Below are positions 5,885 to 60,205 of a DNA stretch of 64,000 nt, one piece after another. The translations under genes and the position numbers were made by a program. Source of the DNA: Opitutaceae bacterium (GTDB taxonomy: Bacteria > Verrucomicrobiota > Verrucomicrobiia > Opitutales > Opitutaceae); NCBI GenBank assembly GCA_027482185.1, contig JAIXWF010000022.1, forward strand, positions 682,001-746,000. Reading direction: 5' to 3'. Every line of letters begins with the position of its first letter. Position 1 is the first letter of the stretch. The notes below the pieces were generated by a model. That model saw nothing but the letters and a program-made list of their open reading frames with translations, had not been told where the DNA came from and searched no databases.

Positions 5885-5896
5885 GGCGCTTCAGGC

Positions 5897-6002
5897 CGTT
5901 GAGAGTTGAACGTTGAGGGTTGAGAGAACGAGCCGAATCCCGGGCGGCATTCGCCGGCAGTCGGTGGATCGACCTCTCAACGCTCGGCTCTGAACTCCCA
6001 AC
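5897..6002. repeat. Inverted pair of NGTTGAG heptad tracts between secA and the Nramp-like gene
   Basis: The plus-oriented arm (5897-5924) reads CGTTGAG, AGTTGAA, CGTTGAG, GGTTGAG in perfect 7-bp phase. The reverse arm (5962-6002) contains TCTCAAC, GCTCGGC, TCTGAAC, TCCCAAC and, at its left end, the complement of the shared 14-bp tail (CGGTGGATCGACCT, 5962-5975). The arms can pair imperfectly into a long hairpin between the ends of two convergent genes. Nothing else is visible in this 133-bp gap. Confidence 0.8.
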
Positions 6003-18307: not shown

Positions 18308-18347
18308 GCTGAAAGCTATCAGCTGTCAGCGGTCAGCTGTCAGCGAT
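18306..18347. repeat. Heptad repeat tract (AGCTGAN family) between convergent genes
   Basis: AGGCTGA, AAGCTAT, CAGCTGT, CAGCGGT, CAGCTGT, CAGCGAT run in exact 7-bp phase from within the amidohydrolase stop codon. Its reverse complement shares AGCTGATAGCT with the tract at 60139-60205. Confidence 0.8.
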
Positions 18348-18357
18348 CGATGCCGGC

Positions 18358-29474: not shown

Positions 29475-29529
29475 CGGAACCCGGAATCCGGAAGGGTTGG
29501 GATGAAACCGGAAGGCGGAGACCGGCGGG
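29475..29529. repeat. Heptad repeat tract (CGGANNN family) between receptor genes
   Basis: CGGAACC, CGGAATC, CGGAAGG, GTTGGGA, then (after a 6-base unit) CGGAAGG, CGGAGAC, CGGCGGG. It fills most of the 104-bp gap between two tandem receptor genes and belongs to the same family as 35571-35661 and 41900-42090. Confidence 0.75.
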
Positions 29530-32565: not shown

Positions 32566-35544
32566 TCAGAAGCGGCCGTTGAGGCCGACGGTGACGGTGG
32601 TGCCGGTGAGGCTGGTGCTCTGCATCTGGTCGGGGATGCCGCGGTAGCGGCGCTGGGGTTCGTTGAAGAGATTGTCGACGTCGAGGGTGACGGTGAGGGC
32701 GGGGCGGACCTGGTAGCCGATGCCGACGTTGGTGATGGTGCGTTCGAAGCGGTAGAGATTCCGGCCGAGGCTGGCGGCGGAGTAGGTCTGGAGATGGGCG
32801 CCGGTGAAGTTGACGAGGCAGCGGGCGCTCCAGCCGCGGTGGCGCCAGGCGAGGCTGAGGTTGGCGGTGCGGGGGATGAAGCCGGCGACCTGGCCGGTGG
32901 TCAGGTAGGCGGTGCCGCCGAAGTTGCCGTGGGTGTCGAGGAGGGTGTAGTTGGCGGCGACGGCGAGGCCGCGGAAGGGGCCGGGGAGAAACGTGAGCTG
33001 CTGCTGGTAGCTGAATTCCCAGCCCTGGACGAAGGCGGTGCCGGCGTTGGCGGAGGTGAGGCGGGTGAAGCCGGCGTATTCGCCGTTGTAGCCGTTGTCG
33101 GGGCCGATGCCGACGGTGCCGTCGATCGTCCCGGCGACGATGTAGTCGCTGATTTTCTTGCGGAAGAAGCCGACGCCGACGCTGCCGACGGGTTCGAAGT
33201 AGTAGTCGAGGGAGGCGTCCCAGTTGGCGGCGACCTGGGGCAGGAGGGAGGGGTTGTTGACGGTGAGGGTCTGGTTGGTCTCGTTGATGGTTTCGTTGGG
33301 CAGGAGGCTGGTGAGGGCGGGGCGGCCGAAGGACGTGGACCAGCTGAGGCGGGCCTTGAGATCGGGGGTGACGTCGCGGCTGAGGTGGACGCTGGGGAAG
33401 GCCTTGGTGTAGCCCCCGGCGAGTTCGCGGCGGGTGCCGGCGTAGTCGCGCGCGGCGGCGCCGACGGGGTCGGCGGCCTGCTGGGCGGCGTTGCTCGGAA
33501 TCCGGGCGCGGACCCAGCCCCAGCTGGACGTATCCGTTTGCTCGATGCGCACGCCGCCGAGCAGGCCGGTGCGGCCGACGCGGCCCTGGGCCATGGCGTA
33601 GCCGGCGGTCACGACCTCGCGGACACCGCGGGTGCCGGTGTACTTCGTCTGTTCGCGGAAGTAGAGGTCCTCGCGCCAGAGGGACGGGTCGACGGGTTCG
33701 CGGGCGCGGAGGAAGGCGGCGGTTTCCCAGCGCGGGAGGACGAGGCCGGTTTCCTGTCCGTCGCGGGTACGGATCGAGGGATCGGCGGGGAGGCCGGCGG
33801 TGCCGATGTAATTCCAGCGGCGGTTGGCGCTGGAGTCGTCGGCTTCCGTTTCGCGGACCTTGAAGCCGGTCTTGAGGTGGAAGGGGAAACGGACCGGGAG
33901 GGTGTAGCGGGCGTCGCCGAAGATTTCGCCGACGGCGATGTTGTTGCCGACGTTGTTGTTGGTGAGGCCGCCGGCGGGGACGCGGTAGTTGGCGGCGACG
34001 GCGAGGTCGGTGGTCGGGGTGACGTCGGTCTGGATCAGGCGGGGGAAGAGGTCGGAGGCGGTGCGGTCGAGGATCCAGCCGACGCCGGCGAGGCGGTGGA
34101 CGAGGGTGCCGGATTCGCCGCCGTTGCCGGAGTTGATGCGGGTGCGGCTGGTGCGGGCGCCGTAGTCGAGCGAGAGGGGACCGAAGACGTGGGCGACGCC
34201 CGTATCGAAATGGCGGAGACGGTTCCAGGTGGTGACCATGCCGGCGGTGACCTCGACGGTGGAGCCCGGGGCGGGGCGGACGCGGGTGATGCGGTCGGTG
34301 TAGCCCGGGAGGATGCCGGCGGTGCCGGCGGTGCCGACCTGCTGGGTGGTGAAGGCGCGGAGCTCGAGGGTGCGGCGGTCGGTGACGTTGGTGTCGTTGT
34401 AGATGGCGTTGGCGCGGAGGGTGGTGGCGGGGGAGAGGCGGTATTCGGTTTTCAGATTCAGGGACCACTGCTTGCGGTTGGCGTAGAAATCCTGGGTGCG
34501 GTAGTCCCAGAGGTAGGCGGGTTGGGCGGTTGTGTTCTGGAAATCGCGGGTCGTGAGGAAATAGCTGACGACGTTTTCGCTGTAGAAAAGATTGGCGGAG
34601 ACGCCGAGGTTGCGGTCGCCGCCGAAGGCATCGAAGACCTGCTGGTGGGCGAGGTTGAGCACGGGGTGGACGCGGTGGTCCTCGCGCATGGGCACCTGCG
34701 GCGTGGAGCCGGGAGCCAGGCGGGCGATAAAGCTGTAGGACGTGCGGCGGCGTTCGCGGAGACTGAGCGGGGAGCGGCTGCGGAGATTGATGGTGCCGCC
34801 GAGGGAGTCGGCGCCTTTGTCGGGCGTGTGGCCCTTCACGAGCTCGAGCTGGTCGAGCATGGTGCCGCTGAAATTGTTGAGCATGGTGTTGCGGGCCATG
34901 CCGCCCTGGCCGGTGAGCTGGCCCCCGTCGAGGGTGACGGTGTTGAGGCCCGGGCCCATGCCGCGGATGGTGAAGCCGGTGTAGGTGCCGCCGTCGTCGG
35001 GGTTGCCGGCGATGCCGGGGAGGCGGATGGCGACTTCGGCGGCGTTGAGATTCGGGAGATTGCCGAAGGAGTCGGTGGCGACGACGTTGCGGAGATTGTC
35101 GGCGTTGCGCTGGGCGGTGAGGGCGGCGGCGGCGCCCTCGCGTTCGCCGGTGACTTTGAACGCATCCAGTTTATAAATACCGGTGGTGAGATCGAAGTTG
35201 CGGGCGGCGACGGCGGCGGCCGCGACCGTGATCACGGCGCGCTGGGGATCGAGACCGGCGTAGGTGACGACGACCTCGTGGGTGCCGGCGGGCAGATCGG
35301 CGAGGACGTAGCGGCCGGTGGGATCGGAGAAGACGGTGCGGCCGAGGGCGGGGATCTCGATCCGGGCGCCTTCGAGGAGATTGCCGGTGGCGAGGTTGGC
35401 GATGTTGCCGCTGAGGGAGGCGGTGTCGGCGGGCTGGGCGGGTTGCGCCAAGGCAGGGGACAGGAAGGACAGGAAGAAGGAGCAGAGGAGCAACAGGACG
35501 CGGGCGGGGTGGGCGCGCGGCGCGGGCGGGGCGGGGCGGGGCAT
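32566..35544 (-). CDS. TonB-dependent receptor with carboxypeptidase-like N-domain (tandem paralogue 3)
   Basis: A 992-residue receptor, first of the three tandem paralogues in transcription order. Signal peptide FFLSFLSPALAQPAQP; regulatory-like domain (GNIANLATGNLLEGARIEIPALG); linker IYKLDAFKVTGEREG; plug (GFTIRGMGPGLNTVTLDGGQL); barrel ending LTGTTVTVGLNGRF. The start is the ATG at 35544, which directly precedes the signal peptide. The frame stays open upstream through a CGGANNN heptad tract and into the DUF1080 gene, so longer gene models would be wrong. The receptors lie downstream of the DUF1080 and oxidoreductase genes on the same strand but behind a terminator hairpin at 35729-35758. 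Confidence 0.92.
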   Translation of the reverse strand: MPRPAPPAPRAHPARVLLLLCSFFLSFLSPALAQPAQPADTASLSGNIANLATGNLLEGARIEIPALGRTVFSDPTGRYVLADLPAGTHEVVVTYAGLDPQRAVITVAAAAVAARNFDLTTGIYKLDAFKVTGEREGAAAALTAQRNADNLRNVVATDSFGNLPNLNAAEVAIRLPGIAGNPDDGGTYTGFTIRGMGPGLNTVTLDGGQLTGQGGMARNTMLNNFSGTMLDQLELVKGHTPDKGADSLGGTINLRSRSPLSLRERRRTSYSFIARLAPGSTPQVPMREDHRVHPVLNLAHQQVFDAFGGDRNLGVSANLFYSENVVSYFLTTRDFQNTTAQPAYLWDYRTQDFYANRKQWSLNLKTEYRLSPATTLRANAIYNDTNVTDRRTLELRAFTTQQVGTAGTAGILPGYTDRITRVRPAPGSTVEVTAGMVTTWNRLRHFDTGVAHVFGPLSLDYGARTSRTRINSGNGGESGTLVHRLAGVGWILDRTASDLFPRLIQTDVTPTTDLAVAANYRVPAGGLTNNNVGNNIAVGEIFGDARYTLPVRFPFHLKTGFKVRETEADDSSANRRWNYIGTAGLPADPSIRTRDGQETGLVLPRWETAAFLRAREPVDPSLWREDLYFREQTKYTGTRGVREVVTAGYAMAQGRVGRTGLLGGVRIEQTDTSSWGWVRARIPSNAAQQAADPVGAAARDYAGTRRELAGGYTKAFPSVHLSRDVTPDLKARLSWSTSFGRPALTSLLPNETINETNQTLTVNNPSLLPQVAANWDASLDYYFEPVGSVGVGFFRKKISDYIVAGTIDGTVGIGPDNGYNGEYAGFTRLTSANAGTAFVQGWEFSYQQQLTFLPGPFRGLAVAANYTLLDTHGNFGGTAYLTTGQVAGFIPRTANLSLAWRHRGWSARCLVNFTGAHLQTYSAASLGRNLYRFERTITNVGIGYQVRPALTVTLDVDNLFNEPQRRYRGIPDQMQSTSLTGTTVTVGLNGRF

Positions 35545-35563: not shown

Positions 35564-35661
35564 CCAAAACCGGAATGCGGAAACCGGAAACCGGAGTTCG
35601 GAAACCGGAGGGCGGATACCGGAGTTCGGAAAGCGGAGACCGGAAAGCGGAGACCGGCGGG
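35564..35661. repeat. Longest heptad tract: thirteen consecutive phased CGGANNN-type units
   Basis: From 35571 the unit CGGANNN recurs twelve times without a phase slip (CGGAATG, CGGAAAC twice, CGGAGTT, CGGAAAC, CGGAGGG, CGGATAC, CGGAGTT, CGGAAAG, CGGAGAC, CGGAAAG, CGGAGAC). It is bounded by CCAAAAC (35564) and CGGCGGG (to 35661). The first four positions are nearly fixed and the last three vary. It lies in the leader of the receptor gene. Confidence 0.93.
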
Positions 35662-35728
35662 GTGGGGCGGGGTAGGGCTTGGGGTGGGGCGAAAGCGGGA
35701 CGGGCGGGGCGGCCCGGGAGGGGAAACA

Positions 35729-35758
35729 AGCAGCCCGGCGCTTCCGGGCCGGGCTGCT
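35729..35758 (-). terminator. Intrinsic terminator after the DUF1080 gene
   Basis: An 11-bp stem (35729-35739 with 35748-35758) is followed on the minus strand by a T-rich stretch (GCTTGTTTCC). It lies 10 bp past the DUF1080 stop codon. It separates that gene from the receptor genes downstream, which may thus have their own promoter or depend on read-through. Confidence 0.8.
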
Positions 35759-35768
35759 GGGCAAACGA

Positions 35769-36515
35769 TCAGGGCAGCGTCTTGAGCTGCACGTTCTTGA
35801 ACTGGACGGTCATCGGGGGGCCGGTGTGGAGCTGGAGCGCGATGACGCCGGACTTGGGGGCGCGGGTGGCGTCGGTGTCGGTGACGTCGGCGGTGAGCTT
35901 GCCGTTGAGGAAGTGCTGGAGGCGGTTGCCGTTGGCGATGATGACGAGCTCGTTCCATTCGCCGAGTTTGTAGGCGGCAAGAATTTCGGCGGGAGGCGTG
36001 GCGCCGGGGAGTTTCTCGACGGCGGTCTGGCTGCGTTTGCCGTCTTTCTTTTTCGGATCGGGGACCATCGTGGTTTCGCCGATTTTGATCTTTTCGCCCG
36101 GGCCCATGAGGATACCGCGGCCCTTTTCCTCGTAGAGCATGCCGGCGTATTTGCCGGTGGAGTCGATGTCGGCCTGGTAGCCGCCGACGACGAAGGTCGC
36201 GGGGTCCATGACCTTGGAGCGGTATTGGACGCCGGAGTTGGCCTGGTTCTTGTCGTTCTGCGCGGTGAGCTTGAAGGACACGCGCAGTTCGAAGTTCGCG
36301 GGCTGGGCGTCTTTGTAGACGAGGAACGTGTTCGACTTGATCGTCTTCTCGGCGGTGGTCTGGCCGGTGAGGGCGCCGTCCTTCACGGACCAGACGGATT
36401 TGTCGCCGTCCCAACCGGAGAGGTCTTTGCCGTTGAAGATGGATTTGAAGCCGGGGTCGGCGGCGAAGGCGGTCGCGCCGGCGAAGGCGAGGAGGGTGAC
36501 GAGGCGGGTTTTCAT
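35769..36515 (-). CDS. DUF1080 protein (3-keto-disaccharide hydrolase family)
   Basis: A 248-residue exported protein with a signal peptide (LLAFAGATAFAADPG) and a single concanavalin-like beta-sandwich of the DUF1080 family. Family phrases: FKSIFNGKDLSGWDGD at the start, NSGVQYRSK in the middle, QLHTGPPMTVQFKNVQLKTL at the end. DUF1080 proteins cleave 3-keto-glycosides made by sugar oxidoreductases. Here the gene sits in the same strand run as a Gfo/Idh/MocA oxidoreductase, a TIM-barrel isomerase and two propeller dehydrogenases, which fits that role. The start ATG at 36515 precedes the signal peptide; the longer open frame upstream is antisense noise. Confidence 0.9.
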   Translation of the reverse strand: MKTRLVTLLAFAGATAFAADPGFKSIFNGKDLSGWDGDKSVWSVKDGALTGQTTAEKTIKSNTFLVYKDAQPANFELRVSFKLTAQNDKNQANSGVQYRSKVMDPATFVVGGYQADIDSTGKYAGMLYEEKGRGILMGPGEKIKIGETTMVPDPKKKDGKRSQTAVEKLPGATPPAEILAAYKLGEWNELVIIANGNRLQHFLNGKLTADVTDTDATRAPKSGVIALQLHTGPPMTVQFKNVQLKTLP

Positions 36516-36706: not shown

Positions 36707-39700
36707 TCAGTGGTTGCCGTGGCCGGTGTGGGCGGCGGCGGGGGCGGCGGGTTTGGTTTCGGGGTTGGCCTTGAGGAAGGCTTCGACGTTTTTCGTGACG
36801 ACGAGTTGGCCGTACATCACGGCCCAGTGGCCGGGGAAGGTGCAGACGAATTCGTAGACGCCTTCTTCGGCGATGGGGCGCATCTTGAGGGTTTCGCTTT
36901 GGCCGGATTCGAGGAGTTTCGTGGCGGCAATGACGTCGTTGGATTCCGGGACGTAGGCGCGGCCCTGGCGGTCGGCGTCGGGCGTCATGCTTTGCGCGAG
37001 TTGGCCGACTTTCTCGCGGGTGCCGGGCTTCACGACGACGAGGTTGTGCGGCATGACGTCGGGGTTGTCGAAAATGATCTCGAAGGCCTTGCCGGCCTGG
37101 ACGACGAGGCGCGGGGTGTCGTAGCGCATCTGTTCGAAAACGGCGCGGACGACGTAGGAGCCGACGCGGAGGCGGGTGAGGCTTTGGCGGAGAGGCGCGC
37201 CGTCGGCTTCGGGGAGGACGCCGGCGAGATCGTCGGTGACCTGGATGGTTTCGACGTAGTCGCGCGAGGTGCGTTCGTTGACGTGGGTTTTGGAGGCCCA
37301 GGCGACGAGGGCTTTGGCGGCGACGACGGCGGGCTCGCCGGTCCACGCGGTGCGCGGGAGGGAGCGGATGCCCTGGGCGGCGGTGGGGACCTGATAGCCG
37401 CGTTCGATCATCGACGCGAGGGCGGCGAAGACGGCGGCGGGTTCGCGGCGGGTGGCGACGGCGGTCTTGATGGCGTCGCGTTGGGTGGCGGCGATGATGT
37501 GGTCGGGGCCCTGGAACTCGGTGATCGGCTTCGCGAGAAGCGGCATGACGAGAGCGTAGGCCGATTCGCGGAGGGCGGCGTTGGGGATGAGGTGGAGCCC
37601 GCCGACGAGACTCTGAAGGGAGAGCGGGTTGCCGGCGGCGGCCGCCCAGATTGGTTCGAGGGAATTGTCGGCGAGAGCGACGGCGGCCCAGCCGTAGGAG
37701 CGGCCCTCGGCGGTGTCGGTCTGGCCGAATTTCAGGAGGGCGGCGCGTTGGGACTTCAACTCGGCGGGATCCTGCGCGAGGAGGAGACGGCCGACGCCGC
37801 GGACATCGATTTCGGCGGGCGATTCGAGGACGCCGAGGAGGAGGGCGACGGGCGAGGTTTTGCGGAGCTCGGCGAGTTTCGCGAGAGCTTCGGCGCGGAC
37901 GGCGTCGTTGACGCCGCGGCGGCCGAGGATGTTTTCCGCGACGTCGGCGGTGCGGGGGAGCTTGAGCAGATCGGCGACGGAGAGCGTGCGGAGGAGATAG
38001 CGGATGCTGGCGGGATCGCCGCCGGCGATGGCGGGGCCTTCGCCGATGCGCTTGCGCCAATGCGGGCTGAGTTGGCGGAGGGTTTCGCCGATCACGTAGT
38101 CGAGGTAGTAGTCGACCTTGAGTTTGGCGGCGGCGAGGGCGACCTCGGCGGCGTCGGCGGTGGGGAAGAAGCTGGCGGCGCGCACGGCGTGGAGGCGGAC
38201 GCGGGGGCTTTCGTCGGTGGCGAGGCGGCGGATTTCGGCGAGGGCGTTGGGCACGCGGTCGCGCCAGTAGCAGAGGACGCGGACGGCGGCGGCGCGGGCG
38301 TCGGCGTTGGCGGAACGCAACGACTGCGAGAGGAGATCGAGGTCGACGATGTTGTGCCACTGGTGGACCCAGAGGGCCTCGAGAACGTGGTGGGCGTAGT
38401 CGGGATCGTTGCGGTCGAGGGACGCGGCCCAGGCCTTGGCGGCGGCGGCGACTTTGGCGGAGTCGTGTTTGCCGAGTTCAACTTTGGCGAGATTGCGGAT
38501 CTGGTTTTCCTTCCGCTTCAGGAGATCGAGGAGGGCGGGGATGGGTTCGCCGTCGATCTTGGGCTGCCAGGCGAGCGGGCGGCTTTCGTGGGTGATACGG
38601 TAGATGCGGCCGTGTTCGTGATCGCGGTTGGAATCGCGGAGATGGCTTTGCAGATGGCCGATGAGCGGGTTGTGCCAGTCGACGACGTAGAGGGCGCCAT
38701 CGGGGCCGGTCGCGGTGTCGATGGGACGGAAATTCGGATCCTTGGATTGGACGACATCGGGCTCGCGCGTGCCCTGGATGCCGGAGCCTTCGTCCTGCAG
38801 ATTGACGCGGTAGATGCCCTGGAAACCGATGACGTTGGGGTTGAGATAGTCGCCCCAGTATTCGTCGGGAAAATGTTTGCTCGTGAGAATCGTGGAGCCG
38901 GCGGAGGGGCGCGACGGGCGGTCCCAGAGCGTCTTCATGCGCGGGTGTTTCGCGGGGTAGTCGAGTTGGCCGGAGAAGGCTGGGGCGAAGTAGGTGTTGT
39001 TGCCGGTGGCATCGGTGATGATGTCGTTGCCCCAATAATCGAAGGCGCGGCCGTGGGGATTGGCGAAGGCGTACGCGACGTAGGTTTCGAATTTGTGGGT
39101 GAGGGGTTCGTAACGGTAGATCGCGCCGTCGATGTTGCGGACGGCGCCGGCGACGGTCTCGACCTGGGAACGGTGGAAGACGCCATCGGAGAGGAGAATC
39201 GCGCCGCCCGGTTCGTAGATGAGGGAATTGGCGGTGTGGTGGGAGTCGGCGGAATCGAGGCCCATGAGAACGCGTTCCTTCGAGTCGGCTTTGCCGTCGC
39301 CGTCGGTGTCGCGGACGAACCAGAGATCGGGGGCCTGCACGAGGAGAATGCCGTCCTTGAAGAACTGGAAACCGGTGGGGCAATTGAGTCCGTCGAGCCA
39401 GACGGTGCATTTGTCGGCGCGGCCGTCTTTGTCGGTATCCTCGAGGATGATGATCTTGTCTTTGATTTTGGCGGTGGGCGTGAGCTCGGGGTAGCTGGGC
39501 CAGACGGCGACCCAGAGGCGGCCCTTGGGGTCGAAGTTCATCTGCACGGCCTTGGCGAGTTCGGGGAATTGTTTCTCGCTGGCGAAGAGGTTGGCCTTGA
39601 GGCCGGGGGCGAGGGTCATGAGGCCGACGGCTTCGTCGCCGTCGACGAACGGGTACGTGCCGTCGATGTTGGGGCCGGGTTTGTTGGTGCCGAAGGCGGT

Positions 39701-41887
39701 GACGACGGGGAGGGGCAGCATCTCGACCTTGCCGGTGCGGCCGGCGGCGAGGGCCCAGGCCTGGCGCTCGAGGTTGATAGTCATGACGTCGCGCTGGGCC
39801 ATTTCCTCCATCATGATCTGGGTGTTGGTGAGCTTGGGGGAATCGGGGTGGGAGACGTAGGCGATCTTGGAGCGGTCGCCGTAGACGTTGTAGCCGTCGA
39901 CGGTGCGGTAGCGGGAATGCCACATGAGGTTTTTGGCATTCACGACGGCGCGGAGCTTCTCGAATTCGGGTTTGGCGGTGTCGGGGGCGGGGGCGCCGAC
40001 GAGGGCGGGGTAGGCCTTGGCGGCGAGCTTGGCTTCGCCGGCGGAGTTGAGGTGGACGCCGTTGATGGTGAGGGGCGGTTGGCCGTTTTTGGCGGCTTCG
40101 GCGTAGAGCTCGCTCGACGGGGCGAAGAGATCGACGAAGGTGACGCCGGCTTGGTCGCGGGCGACATCGGCCATGGCCTTGGCGTAGGCCTCGAGGTTGG
40201 CGTTCACCTCGGGCTTGTATTCGACATTCGGATCCGGGTGCTTTTCGACGGCGATGGGGGAGAAGAGGACGATGCGCGGGGCGCCGAGGCCGTTGTAGTT
40301 TTTGGCGCGGGTGTCGCGGAGGAATTTCTCGAGATCCTCGCGGAACTTGGGGAGGCCGGCGGTGCCGGCGAAGGATTCGTTGTAGCCGAAGAAGGCGAAC
40401 ACGACGCCGGCCTGGACCTTGGCGAGCCATTCGTCGGGCGTGCCGAAGTCCTTGGAGCGGGCGCGGGTCGTGACCTCGTCGCCGGCGACGGAGAGATTGC
40501 GGACGACGAGTTGGTGGGACGGATGCTGCGCGTGGAGCATGGTCTCGAGCCAACCGTGGTGCTGCATGCGGTCGGCGAGGCCGTTGCCGACGACGGCGAT
40601 GCGGTCGCCCGCGTTTAACTGAAAACCGGAAACCGGAGACCGGGAACCGGAGGCGGCGGAGCCGCTGTTGGAGTTTGGAGTTTGGGGTTCGGGGTTCGGA
40701 GTTTTGGCGGGCGCGGCGACGGCGGCGGTGGCGGAGGAGTTTTGGGTTTTGGGTTCTGGGTTTTGGGTGGGGCTGACGGCTGCCGACTTTTTGGCGGGCT
40801 CTTTTTTCGCGGGTTCCTTCTTCGGGGGCGGGGGGGGCGGCGTGCCGCCGGGCGGGACGGTCTTGCCGAGGGCGTAGTCGGCGGGCTTGAGGCCGTAGCG
40901 GTAGGCTTTGAAGCCGTACATTTTCGGCGAATACGGATCGACGAGGCGGACGTCGGCCTTGGTGGGGACGGCGAGGCCGAGGGCCCAGTAGACGCCGTTG
41001 ACGACGAGACGGCGGAGATTTTCGTCGGCGAGGTCGGTGGCGGAGCCGAGGGTGGTGGTGAAGATCTTGTTCTGCTTGCCGGTTTCGTTGGTGTGCAGGC
41101 GCGTCCAGACGACGGGCATGGCGGGGGAATTGACGGGCTGCTCCTGTTTGTCGGTGACGCGTTTCTTCACGTAGTCGGCGGGGGCGTCGGTCGGGTTCAT
41201 GCCCTTGAGGACGAGGCCGCGGAGGAGGATCTTGGCGTCTGCGGGCGGGTAGGCTTCGTAGACATCGGTGTCGCCGAAGATCTCGCCGACGCCGCGGAGG
41301 AGGGCGTCGTCTTTGGCGCCGGGTTCGACGGCGGTGCGGGTGGCCTCGACCTTGTGTTTGCCCCAGTGGGTGACCCAGGTTTCGCCGAGGACGGCTTTGC
41401 CGAAACCGCCGACCCACGGGGCGGATTTGGCGTTCCAGTTGTAGGCGGCCCACTTGGAGCCGGCGGGGAAATTGAAGGGGTGGGTCGAGGTGCGGAGGGC
41501 GAGGAGCGGGACGCCGCGTTGGTAGGCGTTGACGAAGCGCTGCATGTCTTCGTCGGGCCATTGGCGGAAGCGCAGCGCCATCACGATGGCGTCGGCGGTG
41601 TCGAGGGCGGCGGAATCGGCGAGGGACTTCTGGTTGTCGGGGTTGATGGTGCCGTCGGGATCGAGGGCGAAGAGGACGGTGGTTTTGAAGCCGTGGCGCT
41701 GGCTGAGGATCTTGGCCAGCATGGGAAGCGCCTCCTCGCTGCGGTACTCTTCGTCGCCGGTGAGCAGCACGACGTGCTTGTTCTTCGCGGGGACGCCGGG
41801 GGGCGGCGTGAACACGAGGCTCGACTGCGCGGCGGCGAACGCGGTCAGGGAAACGAAGAGGGCGAGGCGGAGAGCGGAGGGGAGCAT
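36707..41887 (-). CDS. Giant multidomain exported protein: ThuA - SGNH hydrolase - propeller dehydrogenase - HEAT - cupredoxin
   Basis: This 1,726-residue protein has a signal peptide (LFVSLTAFAAAQSS). A ThuA/glutamine-amidotransferase-like domain follows (about 35-320; HVVLLTGDEEYRSEE, WVTHWGKHKVEATRT). A low-complexity Pro/Lys/Asn linker covers about 342-422. An SGNH hydrolase spans about 425-645 (VVGNGLADR, GYNES, NGVHLNSAGEAKLA). A PVC-type propeller dehydrogenase spans about 750-1100 (MNFDPKGRLWVAVWPSYPE, SLIYEPGGAILLSDGVF), then HEAT-like repeats (about 1110-1560). The C-terminal cupredoxin has type-1 copper ligands in MPHNLVVV and CTFPGHWAVM. It probably oxidises a sugar ligand and passes electrons to its own copper centre. 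The linker is partly coded by heptad repeats. The start is the ATG at 41887. Confidence 0.88.
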   Translation of the reverse strand: MLPSALRLALFVSLTAFAAAQSSLVFTPPPGVPAKNKHVVLLTGDEEYRSEEALPMLAKILSQRHGFKTTVLFALDPDGTINPDNQKSLADSAALDTADAIVMALRFRQWPDEDMQRFVNAYQRGVPLLALRTSTHPFNFPAGSKWAAYNWNAKSAPWVGGFGKAVLGETWVTHWGKHKVEATRTAVEPGAKDDALLRGVGEIFGDTDVYEAYPPADAKILLRGLVLKGMNPTDAPADYVKKRVTDKQEQPVNSPAMPVVWTRLHTNETGKQNKIFTTTLGSATDLADENLRRLVVNGVYWALGLAVPTKADVRLVDPYSPKMYGFKAYRYGLKPADYALGKTVPPGGTPPPPPPKKEPAKKEPAKKSAAVSPTQNPEPKTQNSSATAAVAAPAKTPNPEPQTPNSNSGSAASGSRSPVSGFQLNAGDRIAVVGNGLADRMQHHGWLETMLHAQHPSHQLVVRNLSVAGDEVTTRARSKDFGTPDEWLAKVQAGVVFAFFGYNESFAGTAGLPKFREDLEKFLRDTRAKNYNGLGAPRIVLFSPIAVEKHPDPNVEYKPEVNANLEAYAKAMADVARDQAGVTFVDLFAPSSELYAEAAKNGQPPLTINGVHLNSAGEAKLAAKAYPALVGAPAPDTAKPEFEKLRAVVNAKNLMWHSRYRTVDGYNVYGDRSKIAYVSHPDSPKLTNTQIMMEEMAQRDVMTINLERQAWALAAGRTGKVEMLPLPVVTAFGTNKPGPNIDGTYPFVDGDEAVGLMTLAPGLKANLFASEKQFPELAKAVQMNFDPKGRLWVAVWPSYPELTPTAKIKDKIIILEDTDKDGRADKCTVWLDGLNCPTGFQFFKDGILLVQAPDLWFVRDTDGDGKADSKERVLMGLDSADSHHTANSLIYEPGGAILLSDGVFHRSQVETVAGAVRNIDGAIYRYEPLTHKFETYVAYAFANPHGRAFDYWGNDIITDATGNNTYFAPAFSGQLDYPAKHPRMKTLWDRPSRPSAGSTILTSKHFPDEYWGDYLNPNVIGFQGIYRVNLQDEGSGIQGTREPDVVQSKDPNFRPIDTATGPDGALYVVDWHNPLIGHLQSHLRDSNRDHEHGRIYRITHESRPLAWQPKIDGEPIPALLDLLKRKENQIRNLAKVELGKHDSAKVAAAAKAWAASLDRNDPDYAHHVLEALWVHQWHNIVDLDLLSQSLRSANADARAAAVRVLCYWRDRVPNALAEIRRLATDESPRVRLHAVRAASFFPTADAAEVALAAAKLKVDYYLDYVIGETLRQLSPHWRKRIGEGPAIAGGDPASIRYLLRTLSVADLLKLPRTADVAENILGRRGVNDAVRAEALAKLAELRKTSPVALLLGVLESPAEIDVRGVGRLLLAQDPAELKSQRAALLKFGQTDTAEGRSYGWAAVALADNSLEPIWAAAAGNPLSLQSLVGGLHLIPNAALRESAYALVMPLLAKPITEFQGPDHIIAATQRDAIKTAVATRREPAAVFAALASMIERGYQVPTAAQGIRSLPRTAWTGEPAVVAAKALVAWASKTHVNERTSRDYVETIQVTDDLAGVLPEADGAPLRQSLTRLRVGSYVVRAVFEQMRYDTPRLVVQAGKAFEIIFDNPDVMPHNLVVVKPGTREKVGQLAQSMTPDADRQGRAYVPESNDVIAATKLLESGQSETLKMRPIAEEGVYEFVCTFPGHWAVMYGQLVVTKNVEAFLKANPETKPAAPAAAHTGHGNH
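40621..40766. repeat. Heptad repeats in frame inside the fusion gene linker
   Basis: Three phased blocks lie inside the coding region: GAAAACC, GGAAACC, GGAGACC, GGGAACC (40621-40648); GTTTGGA, GTTTGGG, GTTCGGG, GTTCGGA (40673-40700); and GTTTTGG, GTTTTGG, GTTCTGG, GTTTTGG (40739-40766). They encode the linker peptides SGSRSPVSGFQ, PNPEPQTPNSNS and PTQNPEPKTQN between the ThuA and SGNH domains. Confidence 0.9.
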
Positions 41888-41899
41888 GGGGCGGAGAGC

Positions 41900-42090
41900 C
41901 GGAATTCGGACTTCGGAAACCGGATACCGGAAAAGGAAGTCCGGGAACCGAGAGAGGCGACCAAGCGCGAAGACGCGAAGGGACGCGAAGGATCGCGAAG
42001 AGGGCGGAGGGGGAGGGGCGCGAATCGCGAAGCGCGGATTTCGGAAGGCGGACGGAGCAAACCGGAAGGCGGAAACCGGAGACCGGAAGG
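41900..42090. repeat. CGGANNN heptad tracts flanking a GCGAAG tract upstream of the fusion gene
   Basis: The 355-bp gap between two minus-strand genes contains only repeats. There is a CGGANNN tract (41900-41934: CGGAATT, CGGACTT, CGGAAAC, CGGATAC, CGGAAAA), then a roughly 9-10-bp-period ACGCGAAG tract (about 41963-42006), then a second CGGANNN tract in perfect phase (42035-42090). The separate inverted GCGAAG pair nearer the next gene is listed separately. No promoter is evident among them. Confidence 0.85.
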
Positions 42091-42121
42091 GCGAGTGGGG
42101 CGCGGACGGGGTGGAGTAACT

Positions 42122-42236
42122 CAACGCGAAGACGCGAAGGGGGCGAAGGATCGCAAAGAGGGCAGACGGGGAGGGAGTTCCCCGGGTCTTGGCTTTGCGA
42201 TCCTTGGCGGCTCTTCGCGTCTTGGCGTTGAGGATG
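42122..42236. repeat. Inverted pair of ACGCGAAG tracts (9-bp period)
   Basis: The left arm CAACGCGAA, GACGCGAAG, GGGGCGAAG, GATCGCAAA, GAGGGCAGA (42122-42166) is phased at 9 bp. The right arm (about 42190-42232) carries the complement (TTTGCGATCCTTGGCGG, CTCTTCGCGTCTTGGCGTTG). Together they can form a long hairpin just downstream of the oxidoreductase stop codon. Confidence 0.85.
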
Positions 42237-42242
42237 CGGGGA

Positions 42243-43385: not shown

Positions 43386-43390
43386 ATTGG

Positions 43391-43538
43391 CGAGTAGCGA
43401 GTAGCGGGTAGCGGGTAGTGAGTAGCTGGCGCGCGTGAAGCCGAGGTGAGCGAGGGCGTGCGGGCCGAGCCGAGCGGCGAGTGCAAGCAGCGGGAGCGGA
43501 GCGTGATGCTCGCTACCCGCTACTCGCTCCTCGCTACG
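43391..43538. repeat. Inverted pair of CGAGTAG heptad tracts
   Basis: The left arm reads CGAGTAG, CGAGTAG, CGGGTAG, CGGGTAG, TGAGTAG (43391-43425). The right arm reads CGCTACC, CGCTACT, CGCTCCT, CGCTACG (43511-43538), the reverse complement of the same heptads. About 85 bp of other sequence separates the arms. The element fills the gap between the isomerase-like and oxidoreductase genes. Confidence 0.9.
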
Positions 43539-43557
43539 GCTGAGCACGCTCGCGCGC

Positions 43558-60135: not shown

Positions 60136-60138
60136 GGA

Positions 60139-60205
60139 AAGCCTAAAGCTGTAAGCCGAAAGCTCGGAGCTGACGGCTGAAAGCTGATAGCTGAGAGCTC
60201 CAAGT
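60139..60205. repeat. Heptad repeat tract (AGCTGAN family)
   Basis: AAGCCTA, AAGCTGT, AAGCCGA, AAGCTCG, GAGCTGA, CGGCTGA, then (one 8-base unit) AAAGCTGA, TAGCTGA, GAGCTCC. It lies between the receptor stop codon and the terminator and shares AGCTGATAGCT with the complement of 18306-18347. Confidence 0.85.

Follow-up and report, generated by a model that had tools for sequence, protein, structure and literature searches.

An over-representation of heptamers in bacteria was reported in 2007, with no function found (as cited in PMC4692102 and PMC4679880). The closest precedent for the arrays described here is the set of paired tandem 7/8-mers of Geobacter metallireducens, divided into classes 1–3 with units GTTGCTYN, TCTCCGTS[Y] and MTYCTGA, which were not found in the sister species and are termed 'predicted global regulator binding sites' in the accessible text of that account (PMC2700814). 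The parS iterons bound by the plasmid protein omega consist of 7 to 10 contiguous 7-bp repeats (PMC4498918), and Opitutus terrae is described as rich in REPs (PMC3733652). A literature search, with subscription papers mostly outside its scope, found no description of heptad arrays in Opitutaceae.

The window considered here is a stretch of 64,000 nucleotides (positions 682001–746000 of contig C19) from an Opitutaceae genome of 6.43 Mb in 24 contigs. An initial annotation had reported strictly phased CGGANNN heptads at 35564–35661. The phasing was confirmed, with twelve consecutive in-phase units and no slip, although the exact span is 35571–35654 and the wider coordinates include flanks. The tract and its neighbors are the following:

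35571–35654, plus strand: 12 CGGANNN units, reading NNNTCCG in the minus (transcribed) sense, some 26 nt ahead of the receptor gene's called start
32566–35544, minus strand: TonB-dependent receptor gene (PF00593, PF07715), downstream of the array
35769–36515, minus strand: 3-keto-disaccharide hydrolase family gene (PF06439), upstream of the array
35724–35758, minus strand: terminator-like GC hairpin, read by eye, followed by TTGTTT, between the stop of the upstream gene and the array

The gap between the two genes is 224 bp long and non-coding. Since the hairpin sits between the upstream stop and the tract, the array stands beyond it, close ahead of the receptor gene. Gene calls came from an author-built codon-usage caller, not a published tool, and starts are approximate. 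The array has no partner arm and adjoins a gene start, not a stop; it may be a right-hand arm that lacks its left partner.

From the CGGA frequency in the window, the chance of twelve in-phase CGGA is of the order of 1e-20. The spacers are, in order, ATG AAC AAC GTT AAC GGG TAC GTT AAG GAC AAG GAC, and mismatches to the unit consensus by column are 0, 0, 0, 0, 6, 4 and 6. This split is uneven relative to an even spread (p = 5e-5), with none of 20,000 permutations as uneven. The fixed period with a variable half-unit, as originally noted, thus holds at this tract, and expansion into near-identical units, as in STRR or SSR repeats, does not describe it, since its spacers vary; pure runs occur elsewhere in the genome. 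Adjacent spacers are less similar than shuffled ones (0.21 vs 0.40, p = 0.015), and alternate spacers are perhaps more similar (0.53, p = 0.08), a weak 14-bp higher order. TRF scores 14-bp and 28-bp higher orders above period 7 at this tract. The view that it is not protein coding was also upheld: all reading frames across it score −0.07 to −0.30 per codon in the codon model, compared with 0.45 in called genes, and a coding repeat was rejected for want of a coding-like frame.

The tract is one copy of a genome-wide feature in which several cores have a common period. Matches to (CGGANNN)3CGGA number 273 in the 6.4-Mb genome vs 5 for the reversed pattern, those to TCAGCNNTCAGCNNTCAGC 228 vs 0 and those to GTTGANNGTTGANNGTTGA 133 vs 21, these counts including pure runs and overlapping matches inside one array. 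Contig C3 was scanned over 1.2 Mb, with 886 called genes: 103 intergenic tracts were counted at lag 7, while lags 4–20, multiples of 7 excluded, gave 0–11 each (lag 8, 10; lag 9, 11; lag 10, 4; lag 11, 1; lag 13, 0). Four-unit tracts numbered 74 vs 5, and five-unit tracts 27 vs 0, relative to one 400-kb first-order Markov sequence. The intergenic period-7 signal, on which the initial annotation had made its case depend, therefore stands far above other lags and Markov sequence. Chance or low complexity was rejected on the lag-7 excess, the Markov control and the odds for twelve units.

The core types are GTTGA, TCAGC/GCTGA, AAGC, CGGA, GGAGTT, TTGCGGA, GTAGC, AAGGCG and GGTTTT. The studied tract belongs to one family of this set, built of 7-bp units in which the core is fixed and the spacer freer. 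Pure tandem runs of CGGAGTT were found on C1, C3, C8 and C12, and of CGGAGAC at the end of C1. Pure heptad runs stand at the very start or end of some contigs (CGGAGTT, CGGAGAC, TCAGCGG; G000:C1:3-90, G000:C1:169799-169872, G000:C8:2-146), which suggests that long pure arrays may break the assembly. The statement that each locus has its own consensus was partly right, but the commonest spacers recur: among 104 heptads in C3 1–1200000, GTT accounts for 25 (largely contributed by pure runs), AAC for 17, GAC for 14 and TTG for 9.

The other heptad arrays in the window are the following:

29475–29522, plus strand: three CGGANNN units (29475–29495), followed out of phase by two more that start 34 bases after the first
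41900–41934, plus strand: five CGGANNN units, near the called start of the following minus-strand gene
42035–42090, plus strand: eight in-phase heptads of the CGGANNN type, seven with CGGA
5894–5927, plus strand: GTTGANN array, 9 nt past a plus-strand stop
18313–18349, plus strand: TCAGCNN array, 5 nt past a plus-strand stop
43386–43429, plus strand: GTAGCGA array, left arm of an inverted pair
43505–43539, minus strand: GTAGCGA array, right arm of the same pair
60136–60204, plus strand: AAGC/GCTGA heptads, immediately 3' of a plus-strand stop

The three sister CGGA loci named earlier are thus real, with small corrections: a phase slip in the one at 29475, five units at 41900–41934 and CGGA in seven of eight heptads at 42035–42090. 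CGCGAAG-type degenerate repeats with looser spacing (8–10 bases) adjoin the CGGA arrays at 41960–42240, and contig C3 carries CACGGA, CACTGATG and GACAGGA repeats at 9–10 bases. A called Gfo/Idh/MocA gene has the GTAGCGA pair at 43386–43539 inside its first 58 codons, ahead of its Pfam match (residues 59–428); the gene may start later than called, and the pair could be intergenic. A called gene of 1726 aa (36707–41887) contains three heptad tracts (40621–40772). Two pieces of it were scanned with zero Pfam matches, which makes the gene call doubtful there.

Placement of the arrays is strongly biased. Among gaps of 30–1000 bp, a four-unit tract was present in 39 of 99 convergent, 56 of 371 tandem and 2 of 115 divergent gaps. 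Of 545 genes whose 3' gap is at least 40 bp, 99 have an array in the 45 nt that follow the stop; for the 45 nt ahead of the start the figure is 19 of 589 genes. In the 82 3' gaps of 150–700 bp that bear an array, the first array lies a median of 16.5 nt past the stop. Perfect hairpins of at least 9 bp at the stop were found in 9 of the 97 genes that adjoin an array and in 3 of the 334 that do not (p = 1e-4). A long palindrome, extending across the stop codon and made of the gene's own last codons, directly precedes several C3 arrays.

The arrays are often paired. Phased arrays occupy both strands in 31 gaps; in 27 of these the two arms have a common core, where 9.4 were expected from shuffling partners between gaps (eight cores searched; none of 2000 shuffles reached 27). 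Handedness is fixed within the family in 26 of the 27 pairs, the arms facing inward in 10/10 GTTGA, 7/7 TCAGC, 3/3 AAGC, 1/1 GTAGC, 1/1 TTGCGGA and 4/5 CGGA pairs. Past stops, sense and antisense counts are 40/2 for GTTGA, 17/5 for TCAGC, 15/2 for AAGC and 16/10 for CGGA. Arms of different families may nest one within another, e.g., at C3:1024016, and single arms, that at 35571–35654 among them, occur too. Plain inverted duplication of the arms was rejected: the spacers of one arm do not correspond to those of the other (p 0.2–0.85; one CGGA, four GCTGA, two AAGC and 13 AGC gaps compared). The tract had been likened to heptameric STRR repeats, and the likeness to STRRs (PMC4692102) holds in period and place but not in the paired architecture. 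The initial annotation had missed this pairing, the 3'-end placement, the other cores and the absence of heptads from the orthologous gaps of relatives.

Core constancy was scored in units flanked on both sides by units with an exact core. GCTGA was exact in 40 of 50 units and one base off in the other 10. Exact cores were found in 33/51 units for AAGC, 16/27 for GGAGTT, 41/92 for CGGA and 20/64 for GTTGA; the CGGA and GTTGA cores are far less constant, and chance pairs of a short core inflate the CGGA misses. Column heterogeneity reached p < 0.05 in 11 of 31 testable tracts, so the split into constant and variable positions is not universal. Pure runs of the same heptads show that ordinary slippage also operates, which, together with the limited column split, tells against a pure form of the diversification process proposed at the outset.

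Neighboring spacers in GCTGA/TCAGC arrays have 0.33 and 0.27 of their bases alike (two offsets), vs 0.30–0.31 between arrays. CGGA spacers are 0.53 alike within an array vs 0.36 between arrays, and neighbors are no more alike than within-array shuffles (p = 0.39). AGC-defined arrays have a small neighbor excess (0.524 vs 0.494, p = 0.006), as does a looser GC-defined set. Recent duplication is therefore not the rule in TCAGC arrays and leaves a trace elsewhere: the TCAGC spacer pattern does not fit recent slippage, while some other arrays show local copying. Summed over mixed tracts chosen by their lag-7 identity (all lag-7 tracts of at least 42 bp), identity drops with unit distance from 0.79 to 0.48 over eight units.

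Some of the GTTGA arms are parts of an interspersed element about 145 bp long, whose interior GATCGATCCGCCGAG..CGAACGGTT is conserved and whose ends read roughly CTGAGCCG.A.TCATGCAGTTGAG. By alignment this GTTGA element has defined ends with inverted repeats, as would be expected of a candidate MITE. It was found at 24 loci in 1.2 Mb, the query included (E < 1e-6), several of which match by the arm only, and a conserved interior was seen for GTTGA elements only. Core and spacer of the left arm are equally conserved in 15 aligned copies (0.873 vs 0.867). Selection on the core was not seen in these copies, which speaks against later selection on cores there.

The heptads were absent from the orthologous gaps of relatives in all 24 comparisons (six array-bearing gaps; no close strain among the relatives), the listed genus members being 66–87% identical in aligned stretches. 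The own gap was longer than that of the relative in 18 of the 24. At C3:155780, a GC hairpin followed by a T tract was recognized by eye in five of seven relatives; in the own genome such a hairpin is kept and heptads are added beyond it. The gap orthologous to C3:155780 in G006, a member of the same genus, holds period-8 and period-6 arrays. G006 favors period 6, with eight tracts vs two of period 7 in 180 kb, and its period-6 arrays are AGAGNA and AGTGAR, some as inverted pairs (L095, L111-L115, L148-L150).

At least one intergenic lag-7 tract was found in 14 of 25 relatives sampled (7–180 kb each), with most in G061, G050, G122 and G211. A unit length fixed by species was considered, as G006 favors 6, but lag 7 is the commonest in 9 of these 14 relatives and no rule is claimed. 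G061 (160 kb) has 20 period-7 and 12 period-8 intergenic tracts, several of them inverted pairs with a common core, and its period-8 tracts include TTTCAGNN types (L155, L156, L169, L170, L290-L293). Its array-bearing gaps were 2 of 17 convergent, 13 of 65 tandem and 2 of 17 divergent, so avoidance of divergent gaps was not reproduced in these small numbers. A four-unit pattern was present in 111 of 200 family genomes, the places listed being a mix of pure and degenerate arrays. A wider contig search gave at least 118 arrays; among the matches listed, 82 of 118 have one or two spacer types and 13 of 118 four or more, a listing that says little on degenerate arrays elsewhere.

T-tract terminators (GC hairpin plus T tract) were found in 4 of 97 genes with an adjacent array vs 48 of 334 without (p = 0.004), so array-bearing gaps do not belong to the intrinsic terminators as a class. 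The deficit is significant in convergent gaps alone (p = 0.011) and not in tandem gaps alone (p = 0.32). It has the same direction in six of six length-bin tests, with p < 0.05 in one only. Over up to 160 nt downstream, the median folding z-score against shuffles was −2.3 with arrays vs −1.0 without (90 genes each, p = 0.003), while the median folding energy per base was equal (−0.409 and −0.413). The terminator deficit and the folding z-score fit a hairpin or terminator-like role, without proving it. An RNA hairpin kept by wobble pairs was rejected, as the heptad stems of tandem gaps contain 50 GU and 50 AC mismatches, a weak test given that spacers hardly pair; convergent gaps gave 34 GU and 43 AC.

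We read the arrays, tentatively and with a probability of roughly 0.45, as lineage-specific extragenic elements of the REP/BIME kind with heptad arms, added past stop codons and possibly terminator-like. They are mostly extra DNA after stops, often inverted pairs with one core, and relatives lack them at the gaps examined. Such elements would spread and persist like REP/BIME-type palindromes, as small copied or mobile elements, and the dispersed 145-bp form of the GTTGA family is cited in support. They would be tolerated behind genes and purged from promoters, and paired arms could form a long imperfect hairpin, maybe acting as a 3'-end or terminator-like structure. Against this reading, no transposase is tied to the arrays, there was no sign of RNA-level pairing and divergent gaps are not avoided in G061. 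The conserved interior limited to GTTGA elements, the lack of spacer correspondence between arms, the single length-bin test below 0.05 for the terminator deficit and the position of the unpaired studied tract by a gene start also count against it. A purely mutational origin is rather unlikely. By this account, slippage or unequal exchange in 7-bp steps is followed by point mutation, the placement marks where extra DNA is tolerated, and the published polymerase-footprint proposal for heptamers is invoked. Pure runs of the same heptads, several at contig ends, the fall in identity over eight units, the neighbor excess of AGC-defined arrays and the higher order in TRF at 35571–35654 all agree with it, but GCTGA/TCAGC neighbors are alike only at chance level, the column bias of the studied tract is strong, and inverted pairs with a common core need more than slippage.

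Binding by a putative sequence-specific protein that steps every 7 bp, as omega does on parS, reading the core and leaving the spacer free, is unlikely. The GCTGA core with its chance-level spacers, the fixed handedness of the arms and the existence of 7-bp binding arrays in parS iterons (PMC4498918) would suit it; the low share of exact cores for CGGA (chance pairs included) and GTTGA, and the equal conservation of core and spacer in the 15 GTTGA copies, would not, and several unrelated cores would require several readers. It is quite improbable that the arrays act in the transcript as a 3' UTR element or a factor-dependent terminator: the sense bias past stops, clearest for GTTGA, points that way together with the lower folding z-score and the fewer T-tract terminators beside arrays, but GU is not above AC, the median folding energy per base is unchanged and CGGA near stops is antisense in 10 cases against 16 sense. 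Similarly doubtful is a broader proposal of a written mark for gene ends, made of handed, inward-facing arrays at the 3' boundaries of many genes in this bacterial family, in which a core of 3–6 bases every 7 bases would matter and the spacer would be free. A putative factor stepping 7 bp would read the arrays as a bidirectional boundary in place of T-tract terminators, and for this reason the 7-base step would mostly be kept from species to species even as the cores change. A telomerase-like enzyme that writes 7-nt units is hardly credible, even though one period with many sequences in a single genome would suit it: dispersed copies account for part of the set, and such a writer was rejected on zero RVT_1 (PF00078) matches in the genome (assembly 97.98% complete).

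The genome offers hundreds of pattern matches with several cores, a strong position preference and array-free relatives at the same genes, so that accounts by slippage, mobile elements, protein binding and termination can be tested against each other by the different outcomes they predict. Among known systems, REP/BIME elements are alike in lying behind genes, in convergent and tandem gaps, in opposite-orientation pairs and in lineage-specific families (PMC3733652). REP-type placement and opposite-orientation pairs were found here, and a RAYT gene flanked by repeats was not; a RAYT origin was rejected, the sole Y1_Tnp gene having no four-unit heptad tract within 1.5 kb. REPs are tagged palindromes of 20–40 bp (PMC3733652), whereas the present elements are phased heptad arms with no tag and no linked RAYT. 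In the sequences read, the CGGA, GTTGA, TCAGC and AAGC arms carry no GTAG/CGTC tag; in GTAGC arrays every unit includes GTAG, though as part of a heptad run.

The GGGAATC and GGGGA(C/T)T heptamers of Xanthomonas and Nostoc are likewise intergenic and rare in divergent gaps, with convergent inverted pairs in Xanthomonas, but each organism has one G-rich, quadruplex-capable unit, and in Xanthomonas they mostly accompany the same genes in two related genomes, unlike here (PMC4692102). The TAACTGA repeats of Beggiatoaceae are intergenic direct heptamer repeats, patchy across species, and differ in their invariant unit, their position particularly upstream of start codons and their single indirect repeat in 169 sets (PMC4679880). 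The parS iterons occur at a few sites in plasmid promoters (PMC4498918), whereas the present arrays lie at gene ends across the genome.

The paired 7/8-mers of Geobacter appear to differ in their consensus sequences and do differ in number, with tens of sites vs hundreds here, and the accessible text of that account gives no report of placement behind genes, core/spacer behavior or a terminator deficit (PMC2700814). Common to both are degenerate short tandem units, opposite-strand pairs at variable distance and several classes per genome (PMC2700814). Degenerate opposite-strand tandem pairs of the Geobacter kind were found here, next to single arms. The heptad arrays are a real, strong and genome-wide feature, and they resemble known but unexplained bacterial repeat pairs.
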